Origin: Ochromonas danica
Lineage: Eukaryota; Sar; Chrysophyceae; Chromulinales; Chromulinaceae
Reading direction: 5' to 3'
DNA: 25,146 nt
Assembly (NCBI GenBank): GCA_015146655.1
Contig: VKHL01000255.1
Location: 1 to 25,146, forward strand
Shown here piece by piece: positions 1 through 25,146 of the stretch (within the stretch, counting starts at the first letter, position 1; each line of letters begins with the position of its first letter). A model generated the notes under the pieces. That model did no database searches, was not told the origin of the DNA, and saw only the letters and a list, made by a program, of their open reading frames with translations. Position numbers and translations under genes: made by a program.

Positions 1-347
1 GGCTGACTAGACGGTTGACCACTTGGTTGTGCGCTTGGCTGACTGCTCGGTTGCGCGGTTGGCTGAGTAGAAGGTCGGCCACTAGGCTGACTGCTAGGCT
101 GTCCACTGGGTTGGCCTGAAGGTCGACTAGTCGGCTGGCTACTAGGCTGACTAGAAGGCGGACTAGACGGTTGACCGCTTGGTTCTGTGGTGGTACTTTC
201 TTGTTCTGATATTGCTTTTGTGAGTTGTTGGTAGGCTTTTGTTTTCGTTTTGTGGATTGCTGTATTATGGTTGTTTTTTATTTGAATAGTTCTGGGTAGT
301 ATGTTTAATATAATTATTACAAGGAGACCGGTCAGAACGAGCTTCAT
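1..347 (-). CDS. PSGQ-repeat secreted or surface protein, N-terminal part (cut by left edge)
   Basis: Translation of the minus strand from the ATG at 347-345 stays open for 115 codons to the window edge. Residues 1-2 are Met-Lys, followed by a hydrophobic stretch of about 15 residues (LVLTGLLVIIILNIL), which looks like a signal peptide. A polar Lys/Thr/Gln-rich linker follows to about residue 54. The rest, from 186 leftwards, is irregular PSGQ-type tetrapeptides (PSGQ, PSSQ, PTSR, PSTQ, PTAQ, PSAQ) like those of the giant gene at the other end of the window. These first units are more degenerate than those of the giant gene. The start is chosen because it places a signal peptide directly before an in-frame repeat. 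The gene is divergent from HGD. Expected location is the cell surface or wall (inference). The C-terminal part and any membrane anchor lie outside the window, and an intron within the linker cannot be excluded. Confidence 0.72.
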   Translation of the reverse strand, partial: MKLVLTGLLVIIILNILPRTIQIKNNHNTAIHKTKTKAYQQLTKAISEQESTTTEPSGQPSSPPSSQPSSQPTSRPSGQPSGQPSSQPSGRPSTQPTAQPSSQPSAQPSGQPSSQ

Positions 348-3502: not shown

Positions 3503-3562
3503 ATTTGATTTGATTTGATTTGATTTGATTTGATTTGATTTGATTTGATTTGATTTGATTTG
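3503..3562. repeat. (ATTTG)12 microsatellite
   Basis: Twelve perfect tandem copies of the pentanucleotide ATTTG, without a single interruption. The array lies outside any recognised gene, between eL37 and the 3' end of the giant gene. It is likely to vary in length between strains. Confidence 0.97.
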
Positions 3563-7000: not shown

Positions 7001-10000
7001 TGGACAAACTCTAACTTTTGGCCGTCTTTTGGCGATTGTAAAACTTGTTGTTCCAAAGTGGGATTCCCCGCTGCAGAGCCAATAATGTAATCTCCTTCTT
7101 CCTCTACAGGCTGGACTTGATTACTCGAATCACTTTCGAAGGTAGCAAGAACAGGTAAAGAGCGCTGTTCATTCACATGTGCAGCAGCTTGTGTGACCAT
7201 TGTCAAGAGCATATTATATGGCAAGGCAATAAAGCAAATAATCATTGTCAGCAAAAGTATGAGACGTGGATCTAAATCCGGAGAAGAAAATTCACAAGAA
7301 CCATTATCTTCTTTCCAATGACAAGCATGCATTTTACCAAAGAAGGTCTTCAAAGCATGGCAATCTTCTTCCTGCAAGCGATCTTGACAAGAGTTGTCAT
7401 CCGCGTAATATAGCCAAGCCATGGATGTGCTTAAGAGCAAAAATGTCAAGACTTTTGCCATAATCGAAATCCATGCAAAGAGGATATGAACAAGATTCAG
7501 ATCATCCTCATGCATGAAAGGCAACACTCCCAACACCGTGTACTCCTCAACTAGATATTTGCAGAATAATCTCCTCCATGGCACTCCTCTGAAATCAAGA
7601 GGTAGTATAGAGTAGAACAAGCCATCGATGGTTCGCACACGCCCATATTCATCATGCTTGGCGAAACCTGCAGAGCTTTCTTTCTCAGCTTCTACCATAT
7701 ATTTCTTTTTACTCATTCCCTTCGTCTTGTTTTCCACTTGCTGAGTCCAGAAATAAAGAGAAATCAGTCCCACGAAAAGGAAAGCAGCCAACCCAATCAC
7801 CGCACCCATGACGGCCACACTGCTTTGAGCATAGTGAATAGGATCTCCCTCCAAAAAGTCGATCTTCAAGCTGCCTCGTAGGATATAAAGTGAGGAAGAG
7901 TACTGCTGGCTGAAGTTTCCTTGCTGCTCCAGTCTTCTTCTTCGACTGTCGATATAGCTATTATCACATTGGCAAGTGGTGGTAGTAGGGGAATAAGAAG
8001 TTACACGGCACAGCGGATTGATAACCATCGTATCTCCACTCCATGTCATGCATCGAGGAATGGCCTGAACACTGGGGCAAGTGACATTAAATACACCTTT
8101 CAGATTGACTGGGCAAGTCAAATTCACGAACGTAAGATCTGGACAAGTGGTTGACAAAAAGTAAGGGGTGTTACTCCAGCGATCGCATCTCAACGTAACA
8201 TTCGAAGAGGGAATCCTGACATAAGATATCGCATCCGTATTTTGCAACACAACTGTCACATTCGGAATTCGTTGAGAAGATGAAGTCGATGACAATCGCC
8301 TCTCAAGATGATCGTTGATGCGCTGAGTGCTTGATAGTGAAGAGGCCACAGCAGAAGTACTGCTAGATTCAGAATAGACTAACGCATCTAATTCCACCAC
8401 AGATGCGTTGGTTTTAATGCCCAATGGATTATTGCAAAACTGGATTAAGGTCAGTCCTGCTGTTTGCATAGAAGATAGAAAGCTCGAATCGACAGTAATC
8501 GTGGATGGAAGTGTTCCCGTAGCTTCTTCATACTCAGTAATTGCTGATTGTAAGGTTAAGTTGGAAAGCGTCAAGAGGTCTCCAGTCGCAGAAACTAAAC
8601 GAAGATTTGACGTGGCAACTGCCACAGGATCTTCTCCAAGAGCTAACAAGGCTTGACAGCCAGTAGATAATAACCTGGCTGCATTCTGAACTTGATTGAA
8701 GAGCGTTGATAAAAAGGAGTTTGTCTTAACAGAACTAGTTGATGCAGTGAATAGTTCCAAAACCTGCGATAATGCTCGTGAAACAGCATAAGCCACATCT
8801 CCATTACATGCCAGTGAAGGATGAGCTGCAATGGTCTGCACGAGGACCGCAGTGCAATTCATCACAGCACTTTCGCTAATCGCATCCATATCCACCAGAA
8901 TGTCTGTTACAATGGTTGCTCGAGATTCTATCACATTGCTGGAAACATCTTGAAACGATAAGCTCGAATACAAGCTATGACAGAGGTTTTCTCGAAAAGC
9001 AATCAACTGGACATATTGACTGCGGGACAGAGAGCAATCTCTGCCATATTGCCCACTCTTGCAAGAGCATTTGACAACGCAGTTAGAATCGTTATAGGCA
9101 CAAGATGGCAGAGAGCTTCCGAATAAATCGTAAGCAAGACAGCTACCAGCACCGCTACAACTACCCGGACAAGCTTTATTAGAAGATCGACATATTTTCT
9201 GGATACAACGACCGCTAAGGCACTGTGTTGAAGTGGTACATGCTTCGCCATCACTCAAAAGAGCAGATTTTGACAAGCAGGGCAAATTGCTATCTCCAAG
9301 AGTTCCCAGATATCCCGATAAGCATTTCCCACAGGTATTGCGGGTGTATTGGCAGGTATCACGATTCAATGAGGCACAAGAAACAGCTGTGGTGCAGTTT
9401 ACCACATTTATTGAAGGCAAAACCGCACCCACTGTACGCACCAGTCCATTGGAGTCAGATCCATTTAGAGCTAACGATAACAAACTGTTGGCAGTAGAAA
9501 TTATCACGGATTTGTCGGAAGACATGGGTGAGACAGTGACTGTCGTGGAGGTGTTACTAGCACAGCCCAGATAATCACTCACAGTAACCATAACGGTCAC
9601 TTTATAGCTGTTGCTGGATAACCCCTGGCCAAGAATCGTGGAGACATAGGACACCGCATCACTGCCCTTGATCAACGTGAATGAGGTAGTACTTGTTCCA
9701 TTGTATAAGAAAGCATAGCCCAGAGGGTAGTCGCTTACATCATCAATCCAGTCTGGTGCATTCAAAAGGAATAGCCTTGACAACGCCAGCCCAGATGTTG
9801 GACTGCTACTTAAACTACCTCCTTGAGGAGGACCATTAACCACAAGATTGGCTGTAATCGATGCTGTCGTTGGTGCAGTCAATGTAGTATAGAAAGCAGA
9901 CAGTTGGAAAGTATAAGTTGTGCCTGTAGTCAGAGCAAAAGGCGCAATAGCCATTTGGAACGTTGTTGTTTGCATGCTACCGGTGCTAGTCATGGGGATG

Positions 10001-13000
10001 GACATCGTCAAAGGTGTTAAAACCCCTCCGTTGGTACTAAAATTGGCAATAGACCCAGTCGACCACGTCGCAGAAACAGTGTAATTGGAACCGATTATCG
10101 CCGTTATGATGATCTTACTATCGTAATTATACTTTGCTGACAGAGGAACCAATCGGATGGATGGTATGAGGCGCTCCACTACTTTGAGAATGACAGAGGC
10201 AGAAGATTGCTGTCCATCGAGAGTGCGAGCCACAAGGGTGATATTATAAGAGCCTGATGACAAAATACCGGACGATATTCTTAACATGGATGTGGAACTG
10301 GAAGAGAATTGGCCACAGCTACTACCATAGCTGGAACCAATGTTCACACACAGCCATGTGTAATTGGGTGGTCGCTGCGGATAATCGGGATCAATAGTTG
10401 CTGAAGCATTAAGAACTACAACATCATTGACATTAACAGTTCGAGATGCTGCGCCATTAATGATTGCCGTAATAGTGGATCTGCCCACTTGTAACGAAGA
10501 TGATGTGGTTGTGCGGTAGCTGGGGTTGCCAGAGAGAGCAGGAATCGTGGTGGCCGTGACAGCAATCATGTATGAAGTGGCTGGCTCCAATGTATAGGCA
10601 GGAATGGTAAAATATCTAGGATCTAATGAGGTAGACCTCACCCCAAGAACAGCTTTCAAATCCTTATACAGTACCCATGAGTATTGAACCACATCGTTGG
10701 ACGAACTTGCAGCACAGGATGGAATTGAAGCAAAAGCATACAAACTAATTGTTCGCCAAGTATAGTATAAACGATCAGTCCCGTAAATACTGACTTGAGG
10801 GGAAGGTTTGCTTTGCATCTCTGATACGACCATGCCTGCCGAAGATTGAGCCAAAAAGTTGGTCACCTGCAAGGTGAAGACATATTGGACACCAGTCTTG
10901 ATCATTGAGTTCGGAATCACTGCAACTAAGTTCGTTGTGTTATAGTTCTCATTCAAATAGTCAGTAATTTCTTGGTACGTTGCGAAGGTGGTAAGATCCG
11001 TCACAATCCAATGAATCAGTGACCAAGCACGACCTTCAGCTCCATAAGTAGCTGTAGGATCTACCGTAATATTATCACAATACGAGACGAAGCTGGAGGC
11101 TGCAAGCAAGACAACAGGTCGAAAAGGCGTTTGTGGTCCCAAAAGTATTGTAGATGCCTGTGATGTATAGGGATATGAAGACTGGTCTGTTCCAGTTATA
11201 TATTGTGGTCGAACAATGCTGCCTAAAATAGTAACATTCTCCCCAACAGTGGGAAGAACTGCACCACGAAGGTCAACCAGGAGAGAGGAGTTTGTGGACC
11301 ATTTACATCTTGAAGTGCTATAACCTGTAAAAATGAGCAATTTGGCACAGCTAAATATGGAATCGTAGGTGGAAATCTTGCTGAAGCCACGATCTGTCAT
11401 CGAATCAAATTGCACCAGCATTTGCAAGCCATTTGTACTAAACGAAGCACTTAGCACTTGTGGTGCTTGACTAGGAGCTGCGCTGGCCCTCCTCACACTA
11501 ACCGTGGTATTCCATGGTCGATAGTAATTGCCAGTCGTGGAAGAGGCCTTTATTTGATAACAGCCAGTGTTTTGTGTTCTAACTACAAAGGTCATCGTAA
11601 GTAGTGAGCTATTGGGCAAGAATGCGAAAGAGGATGGATACACAATGTTCACATATTCTCCAGAGGACAACCCAGTCGTGCAGTCGGCTTTCGTTGCATT
11701 CAAGACAATGCTCGTCAGCAAAGATGGAGCTGAATCCAGTGCTATCTGAAATTGTGATTCGCTTCTTCCATTCCCGCTGAAATACTGGTACAAGTTGTAA
11801 AAGACTGCAATAGTTGTTATCGAGCGACAGCACCCAGTTCTAGCTGAAACTTCAGTGGGCTTCACCTTCTCTAAAGGCATACCGTTGCCCCCATAGTCCT
11901 CGGTATAACAATAAACAAAATACTTTGTATCTGGTTGGAGGTTGTTAATAAGCACCGTGGTCAGATTTGAAGACACTAACGAGCTCCATCCCTGCATGTA
12001 GATATCATAAATAGTTGTGAAATCCTTTCTGGAGGTGAAAGCTGAGCAGTAAACTCTCCCAGTCCCGGTCACATTAAGAGAAACTGAAAGAGACCTGGCT
12101 TGACTTGTGATATTAAATGAGCCTTGTATTAAAGGATAGAGAGTAAGCAAAGAATAGTCTGCCGCTAGAATTCCAAAGGCAGAAGCATAGGCTGAACAAG
12201 AGCTCGTAGGATTTATCACAAACGATGATCCTGGACATATCACTGAATCCACACATTTCAATTTGCAGTTTACACATACTACTTTTTGCCGATTGCAAGA
12301 ATACACTCTCCACAACGTATCGTTGCAATTGGTTTCCAGAGTGAAAGAATCGTCACTTTGAAGGGCAGCAATGATGCTGCGAATTACTGGACGATCCGTA
12401 CAAGACACAGAAATCTCCTTAGTGGTGTTAGATGCGAACAAATGGTAGCGAAAATACCCTCTAAGGTTGGAAAAATATTGAGTGAAGGAAGGAAGAATAA
12501 GATCCGCATTGACATAGTTGACCCAATCTGACTCACTACCTTGTTTAGTCAGCCCCTTATAATGGAAGCTACCAAAAGATAAAGTCATCGACTGCGTAGC
12601 GATAAAAGACTGCAACGCAACGAATCGTTGATAAGTGCTATCAAGCGCAAAATTGCTTACATCCACAGTGGGGGAAATAGAAGGTGCCGAAGATGGAAAA
12701 ACAGTAGCACCTGGCAAAGTAGGCGCCGAAGTCGAAGGAGGTTTCGAAGGCATGGAAGAAGGGCAAGATGATGGCCTACTGGTTGTAGGACGAACCGTAG
12801 GCTGACTAGAAGGTTGAGTAGAAGGCTGAGTAGAAGGTTGGCAAGAAGGTTGACCACTTGGCTGACTGCTAGGCTGACCACTAGGCTGACCACTAGGTTG
12901 GCATGAAGGCTGACTACTCGGTTGACAAGAGGGCTGCCCTGAAGGGCGGCTAGAAGGTTGACCGGAAGGTTGACTTGAAGGCACACTGCTAGGCTGACCT

Positions 13001-16000
13001 GAAGGCTGACCTGAAGGCTGTCTGCTAGGCTGGCTCGAAGGTTGACCTGTCGGCTGGCCTGTGGGCTGACCAGAAGGCTGACTACTCGGTTGACCAGAAG
13101 GTCGGCCGGAAGGTTGACCAGAAGGTTGCGCAGACGGTTGGGTGGGTTGACTGCTTGGCTGACTGCTCGGCTGACCACTGGGCTGACCAGAAGGCTGACC
13201 ACTAGGCTGACCAGAAGGTTGGCTGCTTGGTTGACCACTAGGCTGACTACTAGGTTGAGCAGATGGCTGTCCAGAAGGCTGGCCTGAAGGTTGACTTGAA
13301 GGTTGACCAGAAGGTTGCGCGGAAGGCTGACCACTGGGCTGACCAGATGGCTGACCTGATGGTTGACCTGAAGGCTGGCCTGAAGGCTGACAAGTAGGCT
13401 GCCTAGAAGGTTGACCAGAAGGCTGTCGGGAAGGCTGACTTGAAGGCTGATCAGAAGGCTGGCTAGAAGGTTGAACAGAAGGTTGACCTGTGGGCATGCC
13501 AGTCGGCTGGCCCGTTGGTTGACCAGAAGGCTGGCTGCTTGGCTGACCACTAGGCTGGCCACTTGGTTGACTACTTGGTTGACCAGATGGCTGGCTAGTC
13601 GGTTGACCTGAAGGCTGGCAAGAGGGTTGAAAAGAAGGCTGATCTGTGGGCTGACCAGATGGCTGAACTGACGGTTGACTGCTTGGTTGTCCAGAAGGCT
13701 GAACACTGGGCTGACCGGAAGGCTGACTACTAGGCTGACCAGAAGGCTGGCTAGAAGGCTGGCCTGAAGGTTGGCCTGAAGGTTGACCAGAAGGTTGACC
13801 AGAAGGCTGACCACTGGGCTGACCAGATGGCTGACCTGAAGGCTGGCCTGAAGGCTGACAAGTAGGCTGACCAGAAGGTTGACCAGAAGGCTGTCCGGAA
13901 GGTTGACCAGAAGGCTGTCCGGAAGGCTGGCTAGAAGGTTGAATAGAAGGTTGACCTGTGGGCATGCCAGTCGGCTGCCCCGTTGGTTGATCAGAAGGCT
14001 GGCTGCTTGGCTGACCACTAGGCTGGCCACTAGGTTGGCTACTAGGTTGACCAGAAGGCTGGCTCGATGGCTGACTGGATGGCTGACCTGAAGGCTGGTT
14101 AGAAGGTTGGCCTGTAGGCACGCCAGTGGGCTGTCCCGTTGGTTGACCAGAAGGCTGGCTGCTTGGCTGAAAAGATGGCTGGCCAGAAGGCTGATCAGAA
14201 GGCTGGCCCGAAGGCTGACTAGAAGGCTGGCCTGAAGGCTGGTTAGAAGGTTGACCAGAAGGTTGACCTGTAGGCGCGCCAGATGGTTGGCTTGACGGTT
14301 GACATGACGGCTGACCGCTAGGCTGACTACTAGGCTGGCCACTAGGTTGAGAAGAAGGCTGACCAGACGGTTGACCAGAAGGTTGACCTGAAGGTTGGCT
14401 AGAAGGTTGACTAGAAGGCTGACCACTCGGCTGACCAGATGGTTGCCCTGAAGGTTGACAAGAAGGCTGACTGCTTGGCTGACCACTAGGCTGGCTAGAA
14501 GGCTGGTCTGACGGCTGACCTGAAGGCTGGCTGGAAGGTTGTCCGGTAGGTTGACTGGTGGGCTGACCAGTAGGTTGACCAGTAGGTTGGCCAGATGGCT
14601 GACCGGAAGGCTGACCAGAAGGCTGGCTGCTTGGCTGACCACTGGGCTGACTGCTTGGCTGGCCACTAGGCTGACTAGAAGGCTGATTAGAAGGCTGGCC
14701 TGAAGGCTGGCTGGAAGGTTGACTAGAAGGCTGACCACTCGGCTGACCAGATGGTTGCCCTGAAGGTTGACAAGAAGGCTGACTGCTTGGCTGACCACTA
14801 GGCTGGCTAGAAGGCTGGTCTGACGGCTGACCTGAAGGCTGGCTGGAAGGTTGTCCGGTAGGTTGACTGGTGGGCTGACCAGTAGGTTGACCAGTAGGTT
14901 GGCCAGATGGCTGACCGGAAGGCTGGCCAGAAGGCTGGCTGCTTGGCTGACCACTGGGCTGACTGCTTGGCTGACCACTAGGCTGACTAGAAGGCTGATT
15001 AGAAGGCTGGCCTGAAGGCTGGCTGGAAGGTTGTCCTGAAGGTTGACCACTCGGCTGACCAGAAGGTTGACCAGATGGCTGACCAGATGGCTGACCAGAT
15101 GGTTGACCACTCGGCTGACTAGAAGGCTGTCCAGAAGGCTGACTAGATGGCTGACAAGATGGCTGACCTGAAGGTTGACTAGAAGGTTGACCAGAAGGTT
15201 GACCTGTGGGCACGCCAGTGGGTTGACCCGAAGGCTGACCTGAAGGCTGACCCGAAGGCTGACTGCTTGGCTGACCACTAGGTTGACCAGAAGGTTGACC
15301 TGAAGGCTGAACAGACGGCTGACAAGAAGGCTGGCTGGAAGGTTGACCTGATGGTTGACCGGTAGGCTGTCCAGTAGGTTGTCTAGAAGGTTGGCCAGTG
15401 GGCTGACCAGTGGGCTGGCCAGATGGCTGGCCAGACGGTTGACCAGAAGGCTGACTTGATGGCTGGCCGGAAGGCTGTCCTGAAGGCTGACTCGAAGGTT
15501 GACCGGAAGGTTGACCAGTGGGCTGACCAGATGGCTGAATTGAAGGTTGGCTAGAAGGTTGACTAGAAGGCTGGCCACTAGGTTGATTAGTAGGTTGACC
15601 TGATGGTTGACTGCTAGGCTGACTGCTAGGCTGACCGCTAGGTTTACCCGAAGGCTGACTACTCGGTTGAACAGAAGGCTGAGCTGATGGTTGGGTAGTA
15701 GGTTGACCAGATGGTTGACCAGATGGTTGACTACTTGGCTGACCACTAGGCTGACCACTGGGCTGACCACTAGGCTGACTAGAAGGTTGCCCAGAAGGTT
15801 GCCCAGAAGGTTGCCCAGTAGGCTGGCCACTAGGCTGCCCACTAGGCTGACCACTCGGTTGACCTGAAGGCTGCCCACTAGGCTGATCACTAGGTTGACT
15901 AGAAGGCTGACTACTCGGCTGACCAGTAGGCTGACTACTTGGTTCGCTGGTAGGCTGACCAGTAGGCTGGCTAGATGGTTGAGCAGAAGGTTGACCTGTG

Positions 16001-19000
16001 GGCTGACCAGAGGGCTGGTCTGAAGGTTGGCCAGAAGGCTGACCGGAAGGCTGACCAGTCGGTTCACCACTAGGTTGTCCAGAAGGTTGAGTTGTAGGCT
16101 GACCTGAAGGCTGACCTGAAGGTTGACCTGAAGGTTGACTGCTTGGCTGCCCACTAGGTTGAACAGAAGGCTGACTACTCGGCTGACCAGACGGCTGACT
16201 ACTCGGCTGGCCAGAAGGCTGACCTGAAGGTTGACCTGTGGGCTGACCTGTAGGCTGACCAGAAGGTTGGCCAGAAGGCTGACCACTAGGCTGACCAGAA
16301 GGTTGTCCTGAAGGTTGACAAGAAGGCTGACTGCTTGGCTGGCCTGTAGGCTGACCGCTAGGAACTCCAGAAGGCTGCCCTGAAGGCTGGCTGGAAGGTT
16401 GTCCGGAAGGTTGACCGGTGGGCTGACCAGTTGGTTGACCAGAAGGTTGACTAGTAGGTATACTGCTTGGCTGACCTGAAGGCTGCACGCTAGGCTGACT
16501 ACTTGGTTGACCACTTGGCTGACTACTTGGTTGACTACTGGGCTGACCTGAAGGCTGGCTACTCGGCTGACCTGAAGGTTGAACACTTGGTTGGCCACTA
16601 GGCTGACCACTTGGCTGGCCACTAGGTTGATCAGAAGGCTGCCCAGAAGGCTGCCCAGAAGGCTGACTAGAAGGATGACTAGTCGGTTGACCGGAAGGTT
16701 GACATGTGGGTACGCCAGTTGGCTGACCAGAAGGTTGACCAGAAGGTTGACTGCTTGGTTGACCACTAGGTTGCCCACTAGGCTGACCACTTGGCTGACT
16801 ACTCGGTTGTACAGACGGCTGTCCTGAAGGCTGGCTGGAAGGTTGACTTGAAGGTTGACCACTCGGCTGACCAGAAGGCTGGCTAGAAGGTTGACCAGAA
16901 GGCTGACTACTTGGCTGACCACTAGGTTGGCCAGAAGGTTGACCAGACGGTTGACCTGAAGGCTGGTTAGAAGGTTGGCCAGAAGGCTGTCCTGAAGGTT
17001 GACCTGTGGGCTGACCAGACGGTTGACCGGAAGGCTCTCCGGACGGCTGACCAGAAGGCTGACCAGAAGGCTGAACACTGGGTTGACCAGAAGGCTGACC
17101 AGAGGGCTGACAAGACGGCTGTCCTGAAGGCTGACTCGATGGTTGACTACTCGGCTGACCAGAAGGCTGACTAGAAGGTTGACTAGAAGGTTGACCAGAA
17201 GGCTGAACTGAAGGTTGACAAGAAGGCTGGCTGCTTGGTTGACCACTGGGCTGACCGCTCGGTTGACTAGAAGGTTGACTAGAAGGTTGATCTGTAGGCT
17301 GGCAAGAAGGTTGCCCAGAAGGCTGATCGCTCGGTTGTCCAGAAGGCTGACTGGAAGGTTGACCACTCGGCTGACTAGAAGGCTGACCAGAAGGCTGACA
17401 ACTAGGCTGACCACTAGGTTGACTAGAAGGCTGACCACTTGGCTGGCCAGAAGGCTGACCTGAAGGCTGGCCGGAAGGTTGACCTGAAGGCTGCCCAGAA
17501 GGTTGACCACTAGGCTGACCAGAAGGCTGGCCAGAAGGCTGACCACTAGGCTGACCACTAGGTTGACCAGTAGGCTCACCACTAGGCTGACCACTTGGTT
17601 GACCTGAAGGCTGCCCAGAAGGTTGACTACTCGGTTGACCAGAAGGTTGACCACTCGGCTGACCACTCGGCTGACCTGAAGGTTGACCTGAAGGTTGACC
17701 ACTCGGCTGACCAGTTGGTTGATCAGATGGTTGGCTAGTCGGTTGACCAGATGGCTGACCTGAAGGCTGGCTAGAAGGTTGACCGGAAGGTTGGCAACTT
17801 GGTTGACCAGAAGGCTGACTACTAGGCTGACCCGAAGGCTGACTGCTTGGTTGGCCACTAGGTTGGCAACTTGGTTGACCAGAAGGTTGACCTGAAGGCT
17901 GACCAGAAGGCTGATCTGAAGGCTGGGTAGAAGGTTGACCTGAAGGTTGACCGGTAGGCTGACCAGACGGCTGGCCTGAAGGTTGACTGGTAGGTTGATT
18001 GCTTGGCTGACCACTAGGCTGAACAGTAGGTTGAGCAGAAGGCTGACTACTCGGTTGACTACTCGGCTGACCTGACGGCTGGCAAGAAGGTTGACCAGAA
18101 GGTTGACCTGTGGGGTCGCCAGTTGGCTGGCCTGTAGGTTGGCCAGAAGGCTGAGTAGAAGGCTGACTGCTAGGCTGGCTACTTGGTTGGCCAGAAGGCT
18201 GACTACTAGGTTGACCTGACGGTTGACCTGAAGGGCGGCTAGAAGGCTGATCGGAAGGTTGACTACTCGGCTGTCCAGAAGGCTGACCACTAGGCTGACC
18301 TGTAGGCTGACTGCTTGGCTGACTGCTTGGCTGACCACTAGGTTGACCACTAGGCTGATTACTCGGTTGACCTGAAGGCTGGCTTGAAGGCTGGCTAGTA
18401 GGTTGGCCAGAAGGCTGACCACTCGGCTGTGCAGAAGGCTGACCACTAGGTTGACCTGAAGGTTGGCTGCTTGGCTGACCACTGGGCTGACTACTAGGTT
18501 CGCCAGAAGGCTGACTACTCGGCTGTCCAGAAGGCTGACCACTAGGCTGACCTGAAGGCTGACTGCTTGGCTGTCCACTAGGTTGACCACTAGGTTGACC
18601 ACTAGGCTGATTACTCGGTTGACCTGAAGGCTGACTTGAAGGCTGACCAGAAGGTTGGCCAGAAGGCTGACCACTCGGCTGTGCAGAAGGCTGACCACTA
18701 GGTTGACCTGAAGGCTGGTCGGAAGGTTGACCTGTGGGCTGACTAGAAGGTTGACCTGAAGGCTGACCAGAAGGTTGACCAGAAGGCTGAGAACTAGGCT
18801 GACCAGATGGCTGACAAGAAGGTTGGCCAGAAGGCTGTCCAGAAGGCTGACCACTGGGCTGACTAGACGGCTGGTTAGAAGGTTGACCACTAGGCTGGCA
18901 GGAAGGCTGAGAACTGGGCTGGGCAGTGGGAGCACCAGAAGGTTGTCCCGAAGGCTGGCTGCTCGGCTGTCCCGACGGTTGACCTGAAGGCTGACTAGAA

Positions 19001-22000
19001 GGTTGACCAGACGGTTGCCCAGAAGGGACGCCAGTCGGCTGACCACTCGGCTGACCACTCGGCTGGCCCGAAGGCTGGCCACTAGGCTGACCAGAAGGTT
19101 GACCAGAAGGTTGACTGCTCGGCTGTCCTGACGGTTGACCTGAAGGCTGGCTAGAAGGCTGACCACTGGGCTGACCAGAAGGCTGGCTGGAAGGTTGACC
19201 AGAAGGCTGACCTGAAGGCTGGCCTGAAGGCTGACCACTAGGTTGACCAGAAGGTTGACCAGAAGGTTGGCTGCTTGGCCGACTAGAAGGCTGGCCGGAA
19301 GGCTGGCCGGAAGGTTGGCTGGAAGGTTGACCTGTGGGCATCCCCGTTGGCTGGCCACTCGGCTGACCTGAAGGTTGGCCACTAGGCTGACTGCTTGGTT
19401 GACCACTAGGCTGACTGCTCGGTTGACTACTCGGCTGGCCGGAAGGCTGGCTAGAAGGTTGACCAGAAGGTTGCCCTGAGGGCTCGCCAGTTGGTTGGCT
19501 TGACGGTTGGCCTGAAGGCTGGCTGCTTGGCTGACTACTAGGCTGTCCAGTAGGTTGACTGGAAGGCTGACTACTGGGCTGACCAGACGGCTGACCTGTA
19601 GGCTGGCCGGAAGGTTGACCAGAAGGTTGACCAGAAGGCTGACCTGTGGGCATCCCCGTTGGCTGACCACTCGGCTGACCTGAAGGTTGGCCACTAGGCT
19701 GACTGCTTGGTTGACCAGAAGGCTGACTGCTCGGTTGACTACTCGGCTGGCCTGATGGCTGGCTAGAAGGTTGACCAGAAGGTTGCCCTGAGGGCTCGCC
19801 AGTTGGTTGGCTTGACGGTTGGCCTGAAGGCTGGCTGCTTGGCTGACTACTAGGCTGTCCAGTAGGTTGACTGGAAGGCTGACTACTGGGCTGACCAGAC
19901 GGCTGACCTGTAGGCTGGCCGGAAGGTTGACCAGAAGGTTGACCAGAAGGCTGACCTGTGGGCATCCCCGTTGGCTGACCACTCGGCTGACCTGAAGGTT
20001 GGCCACTAGGCTGACTGCTTGGTTGACCAGAAGGCTGACTGCTCGGTTGACTACTCGGCTGGCCTGATGGCTGGCTAGAAGGTTGACCAGAAGGTTGCCC
20101 TGAGGGCTCGCCAGTTGGTTGGCTTGACGGTTGGCCTGAAGGCTGGCTGCTTGGCTGACTACTAGGCTGTCCAGTAGGTTGACTGGAAGGCTGACTACTG
20201 GGCTGACCAGACGGCTGACCTGTAGGCTGGCTAGAAGGTTGGCTAGAAGGTTGACCAGAAGGTTGACTTGTGGGCTGACGTGAAGGTTGCCCTGAAGGCT
20301 GACCGCTTGGCTCACCAGTAGGCTGACTACTAGGTTGAGAAGAAGGCTGGCTAGAAGGCTGGCTAGAAGGCTGACCTGTAGGCTGACTAGAAGGTTGACC
20401 AGAAGGTTGACCTGTGGGGACACCAGTTGGTTGGCCTGAAGGCTGACCAGAAGGTTGACCAGAAGGCTGACCTGTGGGCTGACCGGAAGGTTGGCCACTA
20501 GGCTGACTACTAGGTTGACTACTCGGCTGGCCTGACGGCTGGCTAGAAGGTTGACCAGAAGGTTGCCCTGTGGGCTCGCCTGTTGGTTGGCTTGACGGTT
20601 GGCCAGAAGGCTGGCTGCTTGGCTGACTACTAGGCTGTCCAGTAGGTTGACTGGATGGTTGACCAGAAGGTTGGCCAGACGGCTGACCTGTAGGCTGGCT
20701 CGAAGGTTGGCTAGAAGGCTGACCAGAAGGCTGACCTGTGGGCTGACATGAAGGTTGACCTGAAGGCTGACCGCTTGGCTCGCCAGTAGGTTGACCACTC
20801 GGTTGACTTGACGGTTGACTACTCGGCTGGCCTGAAGGCTGAACCGTAGGCTGACTAGAAGGTTGATCGGACGGTTGACCTGTGGGCTGTCCAGAAGGCT
20901 GACCTGAAGGTTGAGCAGAAGGCTGACCACTCGGCTGACCAGAAGGCTGACCACTAGGTTGAGTCGAAGGCTGACTAGAAGGCTGGCCAGAAGGCTGACT
21001 TGAAGGCAGGCTGGAAGGTTGACCAGAAGGTTGACCTGTAGGCTCGCCAGTTGGCTGCGTAGATGGTTGGCCTGAAGGCTGACTGCTTGGCTGACCACTA
21101 GGCTGCCCTGAAGGTTGATTAGAAGGCTGACCAGATGGCTGTCCAGACGGCTGACCTGTAGGCTGGCCGGAAGGTTGACCAGAAGGTTGACCGGATGGTT
21201 GATCAGACGGTTGACCTGAAGGTTGACCAGAAGGCTGACCGCTTGGCTCAGCACTGGGTTGACTACTAGGTTGACCGGAAGGCTGGCTACTTGGTTGACC
21301 AGAAGGCTGACTACTAGGCTGGCCAGATGGTTGATCGGAAGGTTGACTTGTGGGCACACCAGACGGTTGACCTGAAGGTTGACCAGAAGGCTGACCGCTT
21401 GGCTCAGCACTAGGTTGACTACTAGGTTGACCGGAAGGCTGGCTACTTGGTTGACCAGAAGGCTGACTACTAGGCTGGCCAGATGGTTGATCGGAAGGTT
21501 GACTTGTGGGCACACCAGATGGCTGGCCTGACGGTTGACCAGACGGTTGTCCTGAAGGTTGACTAGTAGGTTGACTACTAGGTTGGCCGGAAGGCTGACT
21601 AGAAGGCTGACCGGAAGGCTGCCCTGTAGGCTGGCTAGAAGGTTGACCACTAGGTTGCCCTGTGGGGACACCAGACGGTTGGCCTGACGGCTGACCACTA
21701 GGCTGGCCAGAAGGCTGAACAGTAGGCTGACCACTAGGTTGGCCAGAAGGCTGACTAGAAGGTTGGCCAGAAGGCTGACCCGTAGGTTGGCTAGAAGGTT
21801 GACCACTAGGTTGCCCTGTGGGAACGCCAGATGGCTGGCCCGAAGGCTGACCCGTAGGCTGACTAGAAGGTTGAACGGACGGTTGACCTGTGGGCTGTCC
21901 AGAAGGTTGACCAGAAGGTTGAGCAGAAGGCTGACCAGAAGGCTGGCTACTCGGTTGACCGGAAGGTTGACCTGTAGGCTCGCCAGTGGGCTGACTAGAT

Positions 22001-25000
22001 GGTTGAGAAGAAGGCTGAACTGAAGGCTGACTAGAGGGCTGGCTACTAGGTTGGCCAGAAGGCTGAGAACTAGGTTGACCAGATGGCTGACAAGAAGGCT
22101 GGTTGGAAGGTTGGCCAGAAGGCTGACTTGTGGGTTCGCTAGACGGCTGACCCGATGGTTGACGTGAAGGCTGACTGCTTGGCTGACTGCTTGGCTGACT
22201 GCTAGGCTGCCCACTAGGCTGACCAGAAGGCTGACCTGAAGGCTGGCTAGAAGGCTGACTAGAAGGTTGGCCAGAAGGTTGACTGGTAGGCTGACCACTA
22301 GGCTGGCCTGAAGGTTGACCAGAAGGCTGACCGCTTGGCAGACCACTGGGCTGTCCACTTGGTTGACCGGAAGGTTGACCGGAAGGTTGACTAGAAGGCT
22401 GACCTGAAGGCTGGCTAGAAGGTTGAGCGGAAGGCTGACCTGTGGGCTCGCCAGTTGGTTGACCTGAAGGTTGACCTGAAGGCTGATCAGAAGGTTGACA
22501 ACTAGGCTGGCTACTAGGCTGACCACTTGGCTGACAACTCGGTTGACCACTGGGCTGACCTGAAGGCTGACAAGAAGGTTGGCTAGAAGGCTGACCACTC
22601 GGCTGACCAGAAGGCTGGCCTGAAGGCTGGCCACTTGGCTGACTGCTTGGCTGACCGCTAGGCTGGCCACTAGGTTGACCACTAGGTTGGCCTGAAGGCT
22701 GACAAGAAGGCCGACCTGAAGGTTGGCTAGTAGGTTGGCCAGAAGGCTGACCTGTAGGCTCGCAAGTTGGTTGAGCTGATGGTTGGCTAGAAGGTTGATC
22801 TGTAGGCTGACCACTAGGTTGACCACTAGGTTGAGAAGAAGGCTGACCAGAAGGCTGACCCGACGGTTGAGCTGAAGGCTGGGCAGACGGTTGAACTGAA
22901 GGTTGACCTGTGGGCTCGCCACTTGGCTGGCTAGATGGTTGAGAAGAAGGCTGACTGCTCGGCTGCGCTGAAGGACAACCACTCGGCTGACCAGAAGGCT
23001 GACTAGTAGGCTGGCCAGAAGGCTGACTCGATGGCTGACCAGAAGGTTGGCCAGAAGGCTGAACGCTGGGTTGACCCGAAGGTTGACCCGAAGGTTGACC
23101 AGAAGGCTGAGCACTAGGCTGACCAGAAGGCACTCCAGAAGGCTGACCACTGGGCTGACCTGTAGGCTGACCGCTAGGAACTCCAGAAGGCTGACCTGAA
23201 GGCTGACTAGAAGGTTGACCAGAAGGCTGTCCAGAAGGTTGACTTGAAGGCTGGCCACTCGGCTGACCTGAAGGTTGACCCGAAGGATGACCGGATGGCT
23301 GACCAGAAGGCTGACTCGAGGGCTGACTTGAAGGTTGACTGCTGGGTTGACCAGAAGGCTGAACACTGGGCTGACCCGATGGTTGACCCGAAGGTTGACC
23401 AGAAGGCTGAGAGGAAGGCTGACTACTAGGCTGACCTGAAGGTTGGCTAGAAGGCTGACCACTGGGCTGACCTGTAGGCTGACCGCTAGGAACTCCAGAA
23501 GGCTGACCTGAAGGCTGACCTGTAGGCTGACCACTAGGAACTCCAGAAGGCTGACTTGAAGGTTGCCCACTAGGCTGACGTGAAGGTTTACCGGAAGGCT
23601 GACCGGAAGGCTGACCAGAAGGCTGACCCGATGGTTGACAACTTGGGTGGCCACTAGGTTGGCCAGTTGGTTGAACACTTGGCTGACCTGATGGTTGACC
23701 CGAAGGTTGACCAGAAGGCTGAGCGGAAGGCTGACCACTAGGCTGACTTGATGGCTGGCCAGAAGGCTGACTACTTGGCTGACCTGTAGGCTGACCGCTA
23801 GGAAATCCTGAAGGCTGACTAGAAGGCTGACTAGAAGGTTGACCAGAAGGCTGCCCAGAAGGTTGGCCAGAAGGTTGACCACTCGGCTGACCTGAAGGTT
23901 GACCCGAAGGTTCCCCAGACGGCTGACCAGAAGGCTGACTCGATGGCTGACCTGAAGGTTGACTGCTGGGTTGACCAGAAGGCTGAACACTGGGCTGACC
24001 CGATGGTTGACCCGTAGGTTGACCAGAAGGCTGAGCAGAAGGCTGACCACTAGGCTGACCTGAAGGCACTACAGAAGGCTGACCACTGGGCTGACCTGTA
24101 GGCTGACCGCTAGGAACTCTAGAAGGCTGGCCTGAAGGCTGACTAGAAGGCTGACTAGAAGGTTGACCAGAAGGCTGCCCAGTAGGTTGGCCAGACGGCT
24201 GACCTGAAGGATAACCTGAAGGTTGTCCACTCGGCTGATCAGAAGGCTGACTCGATGGCTGGCCTGAAGGTTGACTGCTGGGATGGCCAGAAGGCTGAAC
24301 ACTGGGCTGACCCGATGGTTGACCCGAAGGTTGACCAGAAGGTTGAGAGGAAGGCTGACCACTGGGCTGACCTGAAGGTTGGCTAGAAGGCTGACTGCTA
24401 GGCTGACCTGTAGGCTGACCGCTAGGAACTCCAGAAGGCTGACCTGAAGGCTGACTAGAAGGTAGACCAGAAGGCTGCCCAGAAGGACGACAACTCGGCT
24501 GACTAGAAGGCTGTCCTGAAGGATGAATCGAAGGTTGACCACTCGGCTGACCAGAAGGCTGACTCGAGGGCAGGCCTGAAGGTTGACTGCTGGGTTGGCC
24601 AGAAGGCTGAACACTGGGCTGACCCGAAGGTTGACCCGAAGGTTGACCAGAAGGCTGAACACTGGGCTGACCCGAAGGTTGACCCGATGGTTGACCAGAC
24701 GGCTGACCACTAGGCTGACCTGTAGGCTGACCGCTGGGAACTCCAGAAGGCTGACCTGAAGGCTGACTAGAAGGTTGGCCAGAAGGCTGACCTGAAGGAC
24801 GACCAGAAGGTTGACCACTCGGCTGACCTGAAGGATGACCCGAAGGTTGACCACTCGGCTGACCAGAAGGCTGACTCGAGGGCTGACCTGAAGGTTGACT
24901 GCTGGGTTGACCAGAAGGCTGAACACTGGGCTGACCCGATGGTTGACCCGAAGGTTGACCAGAAGGCTGAGCGGAAGGCTGACCACTGGGCTGACCTGAA

Positions 25001-25146
25001 GGTTGGCCAGAAGGCTGACCACTTGGCTGACCTGTAGGCTGACCGCTAGGAACTCCAGAAGGCTGACATGAAGGCTGACTAGAAGGTTGACCAGAAGGCT
25101 GCCCAGAAGGTTGGCCAGAAGGTTGACCACTCGGCTGACCTGAAGG
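4087..25146 (-). CDS. Giant PSGQ-stalked multi-domain membrane receptor or adhesin (N-terminus beyond right edge)
   Basis: The minus-strand frame is open from the right edge to a TAG at 4089-4087: 7019 residues with no stop and no evident intron. Numbering from the edge: residues 1-4119 are PSGQ tetrapeptides. About 4150-5770 is a Cys-rich ectodomain with many N-x-S/T sites. Within it are a paired-Cys segment (12240-12420), a fibronectin-like segment (LQPDTKYFVYCYTED, 11899-11943), a REJ/PKD-like segment (ATIDPDYP...NYTWLC, 10348-10410), an EGF-like module (9028-9180) and a GPS-like motif (7951-8052). About seven membrane spans follow at residues ~5774-6434, then a tail of about 585 residues. 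A GTG at 24069 is internal, not the start, because the frame and repeat continue to its right. REJ, EGF and GPS-like parts before a membrane unit recall polycystin-1-like receptors, but I see no PLAT domain or ion-channel signature. The role is not known; surface adhesion or force sensing is inference. Confidence 0.85.
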   Translation of the reverse strand, partial: PSGQPSGQPSGQPSGQPSGQPSSQPSCQPSGVPSGQPTGQPSGQPSGQPSGQPSGQPSAQPSGQPSGQPSGQPSVQPSGQPSSQPSGQPSSQPSGQPSGQPSGHPSGQPSGQPSGRPSGQPSGQPSSQPSGQPSGVPSGQPTGQPSGQPSGQPSGQPSGQPSVQPSGQPSGQPSGQPSVQPSGQPSSQPSGLPSSQPSGQPSGQPSIHPSGQPSSQPSCRPSGQPSGLPSSQPSGQPSGVPSGQPTGQPSSQPSSQPSGQPSGQPSSQPSGQPSGQPSGQPSVQPSGHPSSQPSGQPSSQPSDQPSGQPSGYPSGQPSGQPTGQPSGQPSSQPSSQPSGQPSRVPSGQPTGQPSGQPSVVPSGQPSGQPSAQPSGQPTGQPSGQPSVQPSGQPSSQPSGQPSSQPSGQPSGEPSGQPSGQPSGQPSGQPSGQPSGQPSSQPSSQPSGFPSGQPTGQPSSQPSGQPSSQPSGQPSAQPSGQPSGQPSGQPSVQPTGQPSGHPSCQPSGQPSGQPSGQPSGKPSRQPSGQPSSQPSGVPSGQPTGQPSGQPSGVPSGQPTGQPSGQPSSQPSGQPSSQPSSQPSGQPSGQPSGQPSVQPSGQPSSQPSSQPSSQPSGQPSGHPSGQPSGQPSGQPSSQPSGQPSGQPSSQPSGQPSGVPSGQPTGQPSGQPSGVPSGQPSAQPSGQPSGQPSGQPSVQPSGQPSGQPSSQPSGQPTSQPSGQPSGCPSAQPSSQPSSQPSSQPSGEPTGQPSVQPSAQPSAQPSGQPSGQPSSQPSGQPSGQPTDQPSSQPSAQPTCEPTGQPSGQPTSQPSGRPSCQPSGQPSGQPSGQPSGQPSSQPSGQPSGQPSGQPSGQPSSQPSCQPSGQPSGQPSCQPSGQPSSQPSCQPSDQPSGQPSGQPTGEPTGQPSAQPSSQPSGQPSSQPSGQPSGQPSGQPSGLPSGQPSGQPSGQPSGQPTSQPSGQPSSQPSSQPSGQPSGQPSGQPSSQPSSQPSSQPSRQPSGQPSSEPTSQPSGQPSNQPSCQPSGQPSSQPSGQPSSQPSSQPSVQPSSQPSSQPTGEPTGQPSGQPSSQPSGQPSAQPSGQPSGQPTGQPSVQPSSQPTGQPSGQPSGVPTGQPSGQPSSQPTGQPSGQPSSQPSGQPSGQPTVQPSGQPSGQPSGQPSGVPTGQPSGQPSSQPTGQPSGQPSSQPSGQPSSQPTSQPSGQPSGQPSGQPSGVPTSQPSDQPSGQPSSQPSGQPSSQPSGQPSSQPSAEPSGQPSGQPSGQPSGVPTSQPSDQPSGQPSSQPSGQPSSQPSGQPSSQPSAEPSGQPSGQPSGQPSDQPSGQPSGQPSGQPTGQPSGQPSGQPSNQPSGQPSGQPSSQPSGQPSTQPTGEPTGQPSGQPSSLPSSQPSGQPSSQPSTQPSGQPSGQPSGQPSAQPSGQPSGQPTGQPSDQPSSQPTVQPSGQPSSQPSSQPSGQPTGEPSGQPSGQPSCQPTGQPSGQPSSQPSSQPTGQPSGQPSGQPSSQPTGQPSSQPSSQPSGQPSSQPTGEPTGQPSGQPSSQPSGQPSSQPSSQPSGQPSGQPTGQPSGQPSGQPSGQPTGVPTGQPSGQPSSQPTGQPSSQPSSQPSSQPSSQPTGEPSGQPSGQPSRQPTSQPSGQPSSQPSSQPTGQPSGQPSSQPSSQPTGQPSSQPSSQPSGQPSSQPTGEPSGQPSGQPSSQPSGQPSSQPSSQPSGQPSSQPSGQPSGQPSGQPTGMPTGQPSGQPSGQPSGQPTGQPSGQPSSQPSSQPTGQPSSQPSSQPSGQPSSQPTGEPSGQPSGQPSSQPSGQPSSQPSSQPSGQPSSQPSGQPSGQPSGQPTGMPTGQPSGQPSGQPSGQPTGQPSGQPSSQPSSQPTGQPSSQPSSQPSGQPSSQPTGEPSGQPSGQPSSQPSGQPSSQPSSQPSGQPSSQPSGQPSGQPSGQPTGMPTGQPSSQPSGQPSGQPSSRPSSQPSGQPSGQPSGQPSGQPSGQPSGQPSSQPSGQPSGQPSSQPSGQPSGQPSSQPSGQPSGQPSGQPSGQPSGQPSGQPTGVPSGQPSGQPSSQPSGQPSGQPSSQPSGQPSGAPTAQPSSQPSCQPSGQPSNQPSSQPSGQPSGQPSGQPSCQPSGQPSSQPSGQPSGQPSGQPSSQPTGQPSDQPSGQPSGQPSAQPSGQPSGQPSGQPSSQPSGQPSNQPSGQPSGQPSGQPSSQPSGQPSGQPSGQPSSQPSGEPSSQPSGQPSSQPSGQPSGQPSAQPSGQPSGQPTSQPSSQPSGQPSNQPSGQPSGQPSSQPSSQPTGQPSGQPSGQPSSQPSDQPSSRPSGQPSGQPSSQPSGQPSSQPSSQPSTQPSGQPTGQPTGDPTGQPSGQPSCQPSGQPSSQPSSQPSAQPTVQPSGQPSNQPTSQPSGQPSGQPTGQPSGQPSTQPSDQPSGQPSGQPSGQPSCQPSGQPSSQPSGQPSSQPSGQPSCQPSGQPSSQPSGQPSGQPTSQPSDQPTGQPSGQPSGQPSGQPSGQPSGQPSGQPSSQPSGQPSGQPSGQPSGEPTGQPSGQPSGQPSGQPSGQPSGQPSGQPSGQPSGQPSGQPSGQPSGQPSSQPSGQPSCQPSGQPSSQPSGQPSSQPSGQPSDQPSGQPSCQPTDQPSSQPSSQPSGQPSGQPSSQPSCQPSVQPSGQPSSQPSSQPSGQPSSQPSSQPSGQPSCQPSGQPSGQPSVQPSGQPSGQPSGEPSGQPSGQPTGQPSGQPSGQPSNQPSGQPSGQPSGQPSGQPSSQPSGQPSSQPSGQPSGQPSSQPSSQPSGQPSVQPSSQPSGQPSGQPSGQPSSQPSGQPSGQPTGVPTCQPSGQPTSHPSSQPSGQPSGQPSDQPSGQPSGQPSGQPSVQPSGQPSSQPSGQPSSQPSSQPSGQPSSQPSVQPSGQPSSIPTSQPSGQPTGQPTGQPSGQPSSQPSGQPSGVPSGQPTGQPSSQPSCQPSGQPSGQPSGQPSGQPSGQPTGQPTGQPSGQPSGQPSSQPSGQPSSQPSVQPSGQPSSQPSGQPSGQPSGQPTTQPSGQPSGEPTGQPSGQPSGQPSDQPSGQPTGQPSAQPSSQPTGQPTSEPSSQPTGQPSSQPSSQPSDQPSGQPSGQPSGQPSGQPSGQPTGQPSGQPSGQPSSQPSGQPSGQPSGQPSSQPSGQPSGQPTTQPSAQPSVQPSSQPSGKPSGQPSSQPSSQPSGQPTNQPSGQPSSQPSSQPSIQPSGQPTGQPSGQPSSQPSGQPSGQPSSQPSGQPSGQPSGQPTGQPTGQPSRQPTGQPTGQPSGQPSSQPSCQPSVQPSGQPSGQPSGQPSSQPSGQPSGQPSGQPTGVPTGQPSGQPSSQPSGQPSCQPSSQPSGQPSSQPSGQPSGQPSGQPSGQPSGQPSGQPSGQPSSQPSGQPSNQPSSQPSGQPSSQPSGQPSSQPSGQPSGQPSGQPTGQPTGQPTSQPTGQPSSQPSGQPSDQPSSQPSGQPSSQPSCQPSGQPSGQPSGQPSSQPSSQPSGQPSNQPSSQPSGQPSSQPSGQPSSQPSGQPSGQPSGQPTGQPTGQPTSQPTGQPSSQPSGQPSDQPSSQPSGQPSSQPSCQPSGQPSGQPSGQPSSQPSSQPSGQPSGQPSGQPSSQPSGQPSSQPSGQPSCQPSSQPSGAPTGQPSGQPSNQPSGQPSSQPSGQPSDQPSGQPSFQPSSQPSGQPTGQPTGVPTGQPSNQPSGQPSSQPSSQPSGQPSSQPSGQPSGQPSSQPSDQPTGQPTGMPTGQPSIQPSSQPSGQPSGQPSGQPSGQPSGQPTCQPSGQPSGQPSGQPSGQPSGQPSGQPSGQPSGQPSSQPSGQPSSQPSGQPSVQPSGQPSSQPSVQPSGQPTDQPSFQPSCQPSGQPTSQPSGQPSSQPSGQPSGQPSSQPSGQPTGQPTGMPTGQPSVQPSSQPSDQPSSQPSRQPSGQPSRQPTCQPSGQPSGQPSGQPSGQPSGQPSAQPSGQPSSQPSGQPSGQPSAQPSSQPSGQPSSQPSGQPSGQPSGQPSGQPSSQPSSQPTQPSAQPSGQPSGRPSGQPSSQPSGQPTGQPTGQPSSQPSRQPSGQPSGQPSSVPSSQPSGQPSSRPSGQPSCQPSSQPSCQPSGQPSGQPSSQPSGQPSCQPSTQPSTQPSSQPTVRPTTSRPSSCPSSMPSKPPSTSAPTLPGATVFPSSAPSISPTVDVSNFALDSTYQRFVALQSFIATQSMTLSFGSFHYKGLTKQGSESDWVNYVNADLILPSFTQYFSNLRGYFRYHLFASNTTKEISVSCTDRPVIRSIIAALQSDDSFTLETNCNDTLWRVYSCNRQKVVCVNCKLKCVDSVICPGSSFVINPTSSCSAYASAFGILAADYSLLTLYPLIQGSFNITSQARSLSVSLNVTGTGRVYCSAFTSRKDFTTIYDIYMQGWSSLVSSNLTTVLINNLQPDTKYFVYCYTEDYGGNGMPLEKVKPTEVSARTGCCRSITTIAVFYNLYQYFSGNGRSESQFQIALDSAPSLLTSIVLNATKADCTTGLSSGEYVNIVYPSSFAFLPNSSLLTMTFVVRTQNTGCYQIKASSTTGNYYRPWNTTVSVRRASAAPSQAPQVLSASFSTNGLQMLVQFDSMTDRGFSKISTYDSIFSCAKLLIFTGYSTSRCKWSTNSSLLVDLRGAVLPTVGENVTILGSIVRPQYITGTDQSSYPYTSQASTILLGPQTPFRPVVLLAASSFVSYCDNITVDPTATYGAEGRAWSLIHWIVTDLTTFATYQEITDYLNENYNTTNLVAVIPNSMIKTGVQYVFTLQVTNFLAQSSAGMVVSEMQSKPSPQVSIYGTDRLYYTWRTISLYAFASIPSCAASSSNDVVQYSWVLYKDLKAVLGVRSTSLDPRYFTIPAYTLEPATSYMIAVTATTIPALSGNPSYRTTTSSSLQVGRSTITAIINGAASRTVNVNDVVVLNASATIDPDYPQRPPNYTWLCVNIGSSYGSSCGQFSSSSTSMLRISSGILSSGSYNITLVARTLDGQQSSASVILKVVERLIPSIRLVPLSAKYNYDSKIIITAIIGSNYTVSATWSTGSIANFSTNGGVLTPLTMSIPMTSTGSMQTTTFQMAIAPFALTTGTTYTFQLSAFYTTLTAPTTASITANLVVNGPPQGGSLSSSPTSGLALSRLFLLNAPDWIDDVSDYPLGYAFLYNGTSTTSFTLIKGSDAVSYVSTILGQGLSSNSYKVTVMVTVSDYLGCASNTSTTVTVSPMSSDKSVIISTANSLLSLALNGSDSNGLVRTVGAVLPSINVVNCTTAVSCASLNRDTCQYTRNTCGKCLSGYLGTLGDSNLPCLSKSALLSDGEACTTSTQCLSGRCIQKICRSSNKACPGSCSGAGSCLAYDLFGSSLPSCAYNDSNCVVKCSCKSGQYGRDCSLSRSQYVQLIAFRENLCHSLYSSLSFQDVSSNVIESRATIVTDILVDMDAISESAVMNCTAVLVQTIAAHPSLACNGDVAYAVSRALSQVLELFTASTSSVKTNSFLSTLFNQVQNAARLLSTGCQALLALGEDPVAVATSNLRLVSATGDLLTLSNLTLQSAITEYEEATGTLPSTITVDSSFLSSMQTAGLTLIQFCNNPLGIKTNASVVELDALVYSESSSTSAVASSLSSTQRINDHLERRLSSTSSSQRIPNVTVVLQNTDAISYVRIPSSNVTLRCDRWSNTPYFLSTTCPDLTFVNLTCPVNLKGVFNVTCPSVQAIPRCMTWSGDTMVINPLCRVTSYSPTTTTCQCDNSYIDSRRRRLEQQGNFSQQYSSSLYILRGSLKIDFLEGDPIHYAQSSVAVMGAVIGLAAFLFVGLISLYFWTQQVENKTKGMSKKKYMVEAEKESSAGFAKHDEYGRVRTIDGLFYSILPLDFRGVPWRRLFCKYLVEEYTVLGVLPFMHEDDLNLVHILFAWISIMAKVLTFLLLSTSMAWLYYADDNSCQDRLQEEDCHALKTFFGKMHACHWKEDNGSCEFSSPDLDPRLILLLTMIICFIALPYNMLLTMVTQAAAHVNEQRSLPVLATFESDSSNQVQPVEEEGDYIIGSAAGNPTLEQQVLQSPKDGQKLEFVQTKPDESNHMDEFADLQTFTGKIMRAARLRKLQATCDFREDEGEAKYLQRTIAKKLAVLKNMAINASAVAVRDKYDVQRRYSVYDRDLQLLTPKRLLKRIKESRESAATVRHHMRFLSSEEKQEQYLLWSFISEVMPVYLRPLLREVMQRSSDDNKELFRSPTHPVLVLFEYYKPTLSLLFLGVHFALAAYFTVYMGSDLGTLSMPLWGWTTALSILLSLLVLETLCVFFLRIVMMNVGLRSSYMLVWETIRRRARLIIIRTRGVMKRSRMLIQHFNAACRVARSNPQWPVARMILSVNDVDVEPGPDDNLPIGEYLLQTTLVPLYSSFVGLPHIVAYGIIQMVVFVTLCGLIAAFLFLALKSMIAAVVIAGTAIVVLGAREVYVFVVRREYDRFYGLSLKHARTRVISSHQQLDSILDTRLHLKRKPKESLIPIKRVTKEYVTFQSKIMPSDPPVSLLNAIVTGPPIGSTADIALDREIRSRFETIARGSIEYKLDPDRVPMQVRDFLSEKINVENIDPSLSDYPQLLSIIDQSSVGGREDYDPIEEKINKEHTVHVDISEEEYVSDTPNHARSRKHGRSGMRRTKARAISSTPMSKAILLQLKAGLGKSFRHISTPAHLAELSQSSLEGAHAVAEATRAVTDPTVPVPIYSLDRHRKRIIRQFSMRQAIEAYNADETIPDVDTTKSVVCEGPGSASAAEKAAPLYVPERSTGFHVQVVPPADGRPKSLPKFTISLSFDDEFAPTDSSQPVMTPMRLRDLHPFHRPGRDTRTHFHHHYYHYSVNKSSAVQSQTALVPSESRALRNGSSPSPTNDRFRRPRSSRQSSAPYRRAENTYFGTLEVERMTSPTRDEPREARKPLRREMSSRRAARDEALEMLRGNRGQDNNRTSRGPTNAGWRLPVTLPDMTNSVSYDIAHYIQQPLNANVAPASIGMGLLPTTLQHSIRSPNLSPLRGGRGEPLNMPNNSNRK
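4090..5844 (-). other. Cytoplasmic tail of the giant protein
   Basis: About 585 residues follow the last hydrophobic stretch. The tail is predicted disordered in large part, with basic Ser/Arg-rich blocks (GRSGMRRTKARA, FRRPRSSRQSS), an acidic patch (DISEEEYVSD) and a His/Tyr cluster (HFHHHYYHY, about 4650-4690). It has no enzyme signature I recognise. It could anchor to cytoskeleton or carry phosphorylation sites (inference). Confidence 0.45.
5845..7825 (-). other. Membrane module of the giant protein, about seven spans
   Basis: Hydrophobic stretches are seen at about 7744-7825, 7402-7500, 7184-7272, 6418-6480, 6298-6384, 5917-6000 and 5845-5916. The first and second are parted by about 80 charged residues, and the third and fourth by about 235 residues that are probably cytoplasmic. 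The 3-4 loop is rich in basic residues and in Glu. This spacing does not fit a GPCR bundle. I do not recognise the family. Confidence 0.55.
7951..8052 (-). other. Degenerate GPS-like motif before the first membrane span
   Basis: The encoded pattern is CMTW (Cys at 8052-8050), a middle Cys at 8010-8008, and TTTTCQC (7966-7974) followed by DNS. This is the Cys-Trp-Cys-Cys-x-Cys spacing of a GPS motif at the end of a GAIN domain. The usual cleavage tripeptide His-Leu-Ser/Thr is absent. The motif lies about 50 residues before the first membrane span, where a GPS is expected. Confidence 0.45.
9028..9180 (-). other. EGF-like module within the giant protein
   Basis: The encoded segment runs ACPGSCSGAGSCLAY ... 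CSCKSGQYGRDCSLS, with the CxC...G(x)2GxxC ending typical of EGF-like folds. The preceding segment (about 9180-9400) is also rich in Cys (CGKCLSGYLG, CLSGRCIQKIC), so this may be a run of small disulfide modules. This places the region outside the cell. Confidence 0.65.
14405..15028 (-). repeat. Recent tandem duplication of a 312-bp unit
   Basis: The segment beginning GGTTGACTAGAAGG at 14405 is repeated from 14717. By eye the two copies differ at about two bases over 312 bp. Neighbouring markers at 13489, 13957, 14113, 14269 and 15205 lie on the same 156-bp lattice. Confidence 0.88.
19331..20229 (-). repeat. Three near-identical 312-bp copies
   Basis: Copies begin at CCTGTGGGCATCCCC at 19331, 19643 and 19955. 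By eye, copy 2 and copy 3 are the same for about 275 bp until about 20229, and copy 1 differs from them at only a few bases. Each unit holds a PTGMPTG marker and a PTGEP/PSGEP-type marker. The near-identity points to a recent expansion or gene conversion. Confidence 0.9.
21241..21552 (-). repeat. Tandem duplication of a 156-bp unit (13 tetrapeptides)
   Basis: The segment starting GCTTGGCTCAGCACT at 21241 recurs at 21397, 156 bp away, and is nearly identical over its first ~120 bp. Both copies contain a PSGVPTSQPSDQ-type marker. A further pair of PTGVPTG markers at 21661 and 21817 is also 156 bp apart. Confidence 0.88.
23161..25146 (-). repeat. 312-bp higher-order repeat array (26 tetrapeptides per period)
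   Basis: A marker whose plus-strand form begins TGTAGGCTGACC and in most copies reads on to GGAACTCC (coding PSGVPSGQPTGQ) starts at 23161, 23473, 23785, 24097, 24409, 24721 and 25033, always 312 bp apart. At 24097 the second half is altered, at 23785 Val is replaced by Phe, and at 24409 the following line keeps the marker. An extra copy at 23521, 48 bp off the lattice, reflects a small local duplication. The array runs off the right edge. Confidence 0.9.

Follow-up and report, generated by a model that had tools for sequence, protein, structure and literature searches.

A 13-unit higher-order lattice within the coding 12-bp repeat array of a REJ-domain protein gene in Ochromonas danica

The window analyzed here is the whole of contig VKHL01000255.1 (C255), a stretch of 25,146 base pairs (bp) from the Ochromonas danica assembly GCA_015146655.1, which holds 31,187,593 bases in 337 contigs. 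On its minus strand a reading frame without a 5′ end stays open from 25146 to 4087 (7,019 residues) and consists of a very long P[ST]xQ repeat array, built of 12-bp units, followed by a REJ domain and hydrophobic segments. Here, we describe a lattice of 13 units (156 bp) within this array. The same block size is found in many stalk genes of this one genome, and that is the wider result and the main point of interest. The parts of the frame are listed below.

12778..25146, minus strand: P[ST]xQ array with some 1,030 copies of the 12-bp (four-residue) unit; the contig end cuts its 5′ side
13126..13134, minus strand: three-residue unit PTQ, the sole register break in the array
4087..12777, minus strand: C-terminal part of the frame that holds the array, with an ectodomain, the REJ domain, hydrophobic segments, and a cytoplasm-like tail
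9430..10707, minus strand: REJ domain (PF02010), scoring 181.6 bits when the genome was searched
5920..7818, minus strand: seven Kyte-Doolittle windows of 19 residues with hydropathy above 1.6, among which two overlap

Counted from 25146, the first 1,000 units keep a single register. Proline occupies position 1 in all 1,032 four-residue units, position 2 is serine (901) or threonine (131), and glutamine fills position 4 in 957 of the 1,032. Pfam's name for the repeat is “PT disordered repeat”; with proline at every fourth residue, the composition is compatible with a proline-rich polyproline-II rod. The best explanation has the array encode the long stalk that a REJ-domain membrane protein would extend outside the cell. 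If shaped as a polyproline-II-like rod, such a stalk would reach ∼1.3 micrometres (∼4,120 residues at about 3.1 angstrom), and 52 residues (13 units) would cover ∼16 nm at a rise of 3.08 angstrom.

A preliminary description of this DNA had reported marker units falling on multiples of 156 bp, and the lattice proved to be real. Within the array, nucleotide identity at a lag of 26 units is 0.763, above both the value for adjacent units (lag 1, 0.688) and the expected 0.685, and block copies are found at 156, 312, and 468 bp. Similarly, synonymous agreement at lag 26 is 0.582 versus 0.437, and by this measure the similarity lies at the DNA level, beyond the protein alone. We chose direct lag statistics because profile models (9 to 17 states) gave no clean period: 13 states were best for C255 only, and elsewhere larger models won through overfitting. 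The duplicated blocks are as follows, with identity at informative positions for the first three.

23071..25146, minus strand: 26-unit (312-bp) block in head-to-tail repeats, identity 0.83-0.85
21211..21522, minus strand: 13-unit (156-bp) tandem duplicate, identity 0.98
20035..20790, minus strand: 39-unit (468-bp) duplicate, identity 0.91
19327..20274, minus strand: 26-unit (312-bp) tandem copies, identity 0.98
18259..18714, minus strand: off-lattice 21-unit (252-bp) duplicate, identity 0.94
14395..15066, minus strand: 26-unit (312-bp) tandem copies, identity 0.97
13351..14058, minus strand: 39-unit (468-bp) duplicate, identity 0.91

The markers at 19477, 19789, and 20101 are the tandem copies at 19327..20274, and the stretch 23071..25146 is without a 13-unit half-period.

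It could be argued that such a lattice arises by chance or artefact, from markers picked by eye or from assembly stitching. The marker list was indeed incomplete in omitting off-lattice copies, and many arrays terminate at contig ends. As a main cause, this explanation is refuted and is scarcely credible.

We consider it likely that the lattice is a higher-order repeat within a coding minisatellite, built by tandem block duplication and in-step unequal exchange, and this mode of formation is well supported. The 12-bp unit would be the monomer, and the DNA would have undergone tandem duplication in blocks of 13, 26, and 39 units. Unequal exchange, the presumed agent, would later have acted between copies and would work best with whole blocks aligned, and this preference would keep the blocks in step; because every such exchange would gain or lose a multiple of 13, the lattice would reinforce itself, in a manner resembling alpha-satellite higher-order repeats and the ensemble repeats of spider silk. 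The earlier suggestion of growth by blocks of 52 or 104 residues is supported, whereas a structural period of 52 residues, offered as its alternative, was not demonstrated.

It is important to set several points against this reading. Eight of the 24 called duplications fall off the lattice, and its register is lost in places, since the 5′-most quarter of the array has the 26-unit period only and the third quarter is weak. Near-identical copies may have been misassembled, and the copy numbers rest on one assembly. In addition, the 13-unit block size recurs in many other P[ST]xQ stalk array groups within the genome. Self-reinforcing exchange alone leaves this recurrence unexplained, and pure homology guidance does not predict that groups in which no DNA similarity is detectable would share the number 13.

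Some other loci deserve mention in their own right. L024/L025 (G000 C180:22596-29363) carries a tandem 135-unit (1,620-bp) block whose identity rounds to 1.00 over 405 units. In L015 (G000 C153:52208-53779), a P[ST]xQ stalk is fused to teneurin-like EGF domains (PF23106, E 3.4e-17), and because it adjoins such domains the repeat is common to unrelated ectodomains. Two scans for independent data sets were unsuccessful. A scan of viral contigs gave eight loci, with runs of at least 12 units in L045 and L046 only, both of them PAVS runs. Of three loci from a separate scan of genome contigs, two were inspected (L071 was left out): L070 holds a short tail repeat, and in L072 the match lies opposite a lysine/alanine-rich frame.

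One way to account for the shared block size is descent of all stalk arrays from a single ancestral array that already had the 13-unit lattice, with local homogenization altering the consensus and keeping the period. We regard this as a tentative possibility. The hosts differ in their domains (REJ, teneurin-like EGF, NHL-like, or none found), and no common 13-unit consensus was found among 28 profile pairs, only one of which gave p <0.05 in a rotation test (the sole use made of consensus folding with hidden Markov models). Similarly, the masked excess is absent at synonymous sites outside the window's array group.

If instead the DNA machinery favors a step of ∼156 bp (e.g., one nucleosome repeat), then the arrays could have gained the 13-unit period independently. 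This is unlikely, as arrays with steps of 144, 276, 348, 372, 444, and 1,620 bp exist. A limited literature search covering stramenopiles, diatoms, and oomycetes found no nucleosome repeat length, and we know of none for the source organism.

There is also a second, shorter period. Across 21 undisturbed segments, that is, those with no detectable duplication (L009-L025, L034-L041, L055, L065, and the window), non-Q residues at the fourth position recur every 2.6-2.67 units (10.4-10.7 residues), essentially at the amino-acid level, and synonymous features are nearly flat. The window's own array is without this period, its non-Q peak lying at 3/13. Nucleosome rotation (10.4 bp) was rejected as a source: sampled every 12 bp it gives ∼0.15, not 0.38, cycles per unit, and the nearly flat synonymous features also disfavor it.

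Because 13 units equal five periods of 2.6, it is attractive to let the geometry of the protein rod set the block size. The residues replacing glutamine would lie on one face of the helix, 13 would be the shortest nearly exact multiple of their period, and duplications of 13, 26, and 39 units would be retained with that face aligned; as a variant, the 52-residue (∼16 nm) step could be the register with a partner filament. We find this account improbable, and still more so its specific form, in which a left-handed helix of ∼2.9 residues per turn presents a face every 2.6 units and selection keeps the aligned duplications. Duplications of other lengths hold the 2.6-unit phase weakly, and those in non-Q-rich arrays hold none (mean cosine −0.22, n = 39). 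A prediction linking the two periods failed. Canonical polyproline II does not yield 0.38, whereas −75/140 does. It was this mismatch, together with the weak phase and the missing period in the window, that led us to demote rod geometry from the main reading.

Tandem block duplication with in-step unequal exchange is the reading we retain. Higher-order repeats in coding arrays are already known; drift and unequal exchange would not by themselves predict that a single block size recurs across groups in which no shared sequence is detectable. This recurrence is a natural experiment on whether DNA mechanics, common ancestry, or protein pitch determines how long a tandem duplication is. An amino-acid period of ∼10.5 residues would be the first structural handle on proline-rich stalks, which are usually dismissed as disordered. 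Were the rod-geometry reading true, the stalks would be molecular rulers graduated in steps of ∼16 nm and would correspond, as a eukaryotic counterpart, to the filament core formed by MST3; the genome's duplication spectrum would then read out a protein's helical pitch. A literature search, which is a weak test, found no earlier report of a recurring block size or of a ∼10.5-residue period, and we know of none.

The remainder of the frame places the array in its protein. At E ≤0.1, the Pfam scan returned only REJ (E 8.4e-54, 183.3 bits, cut-off 25) and a sub-threshold fn3, and the hydropathy windows at 5920-7818 are likely to be several transmembrane helices following REJ. The polycystin-1/PKDREJ family is defined by GPS, PLAT, and polycystin channel domains; none of these was found in that scan, which a diverged copy could escape, and for this reason we name the protein for its REJ domain rather than as a polycystin. 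Genome-wide, the search gave 38 REJ matches, some of them fragments of a single domain. A recent 6.2-kb duplication (97.1% identity) between window 7163-13377 and G000 C302:16-6218 (L009) takes in the 3′ part of the REJ gene and the array start; C302 starts within its array. Elsewhere in the window lie the first part of another P[ST]xQ protein (3-347, minus strand), with a hydrophobic, signal-like N terminus and truncated by the contig's left end; a homogentisate 1,2-dioxygenase gene (694-2073, plus strand) with an intact 459-residue frame (HgmA_N, E 1e-120); and a perfect (ATTTG)12 microsatellite (3503-3562).

Four known systems can be compared with the window. Like the array, the ensemble repeats in the major ampullate silk genes of spiders (PMC9779670) are coding and nest short repeats in larger tandem blocks, which are homogenized within the gene, with slippage or unequal crossing over proposed. 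The window array differs in its intron-free open frame and single 12-bp monomer, and block size is equal in many array groups of this genome, whereas silk ensembles differ between paralogues. Alpha-satellite higher-order repeats (PMC8122249) are alike in that diverged monomers are amplified as a block and blocks resemble each other more than monomers do; the window array is coding, has a 12-bp monomer, and is much more weakly homogenized (0.83-0.98 between copies).

On the protein side, REJ proteins of the polycystin-1/PKDREJ kind, among them Ectocarpus Esi0130_0068 (PMC4700764), resemble the window protein in having several hydrophobic segments after REJ. In the Ectocarpus protein, GPS and channel were both matched and the extracellular part measures 976 residues; in the window neither match was found by Pfam, and the stalk by itself is longer than 4,000 residues. 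A role as gamete receptors has been discussed for REJ proteins of brown algae (PMC4700764). The window protein is best compared with the Chlamydomonas mastigoneme protein MST3 (PMC11015965), although filament formation here is putative. MST3 (8,572 residues) combines a repeated, proline-rich rod with a membrane part that is polycystin-like, and its 42 repeats of 19 nm are suggested to set filament and mastigoneme length. The window protein departs from it in its P[ST]xQ repeats, its REJ domain, and the lack of a channel domain by Pfam; the likeness is one of build, in that both are very long surface proteins joining a proline-rich rod to a membrane part.
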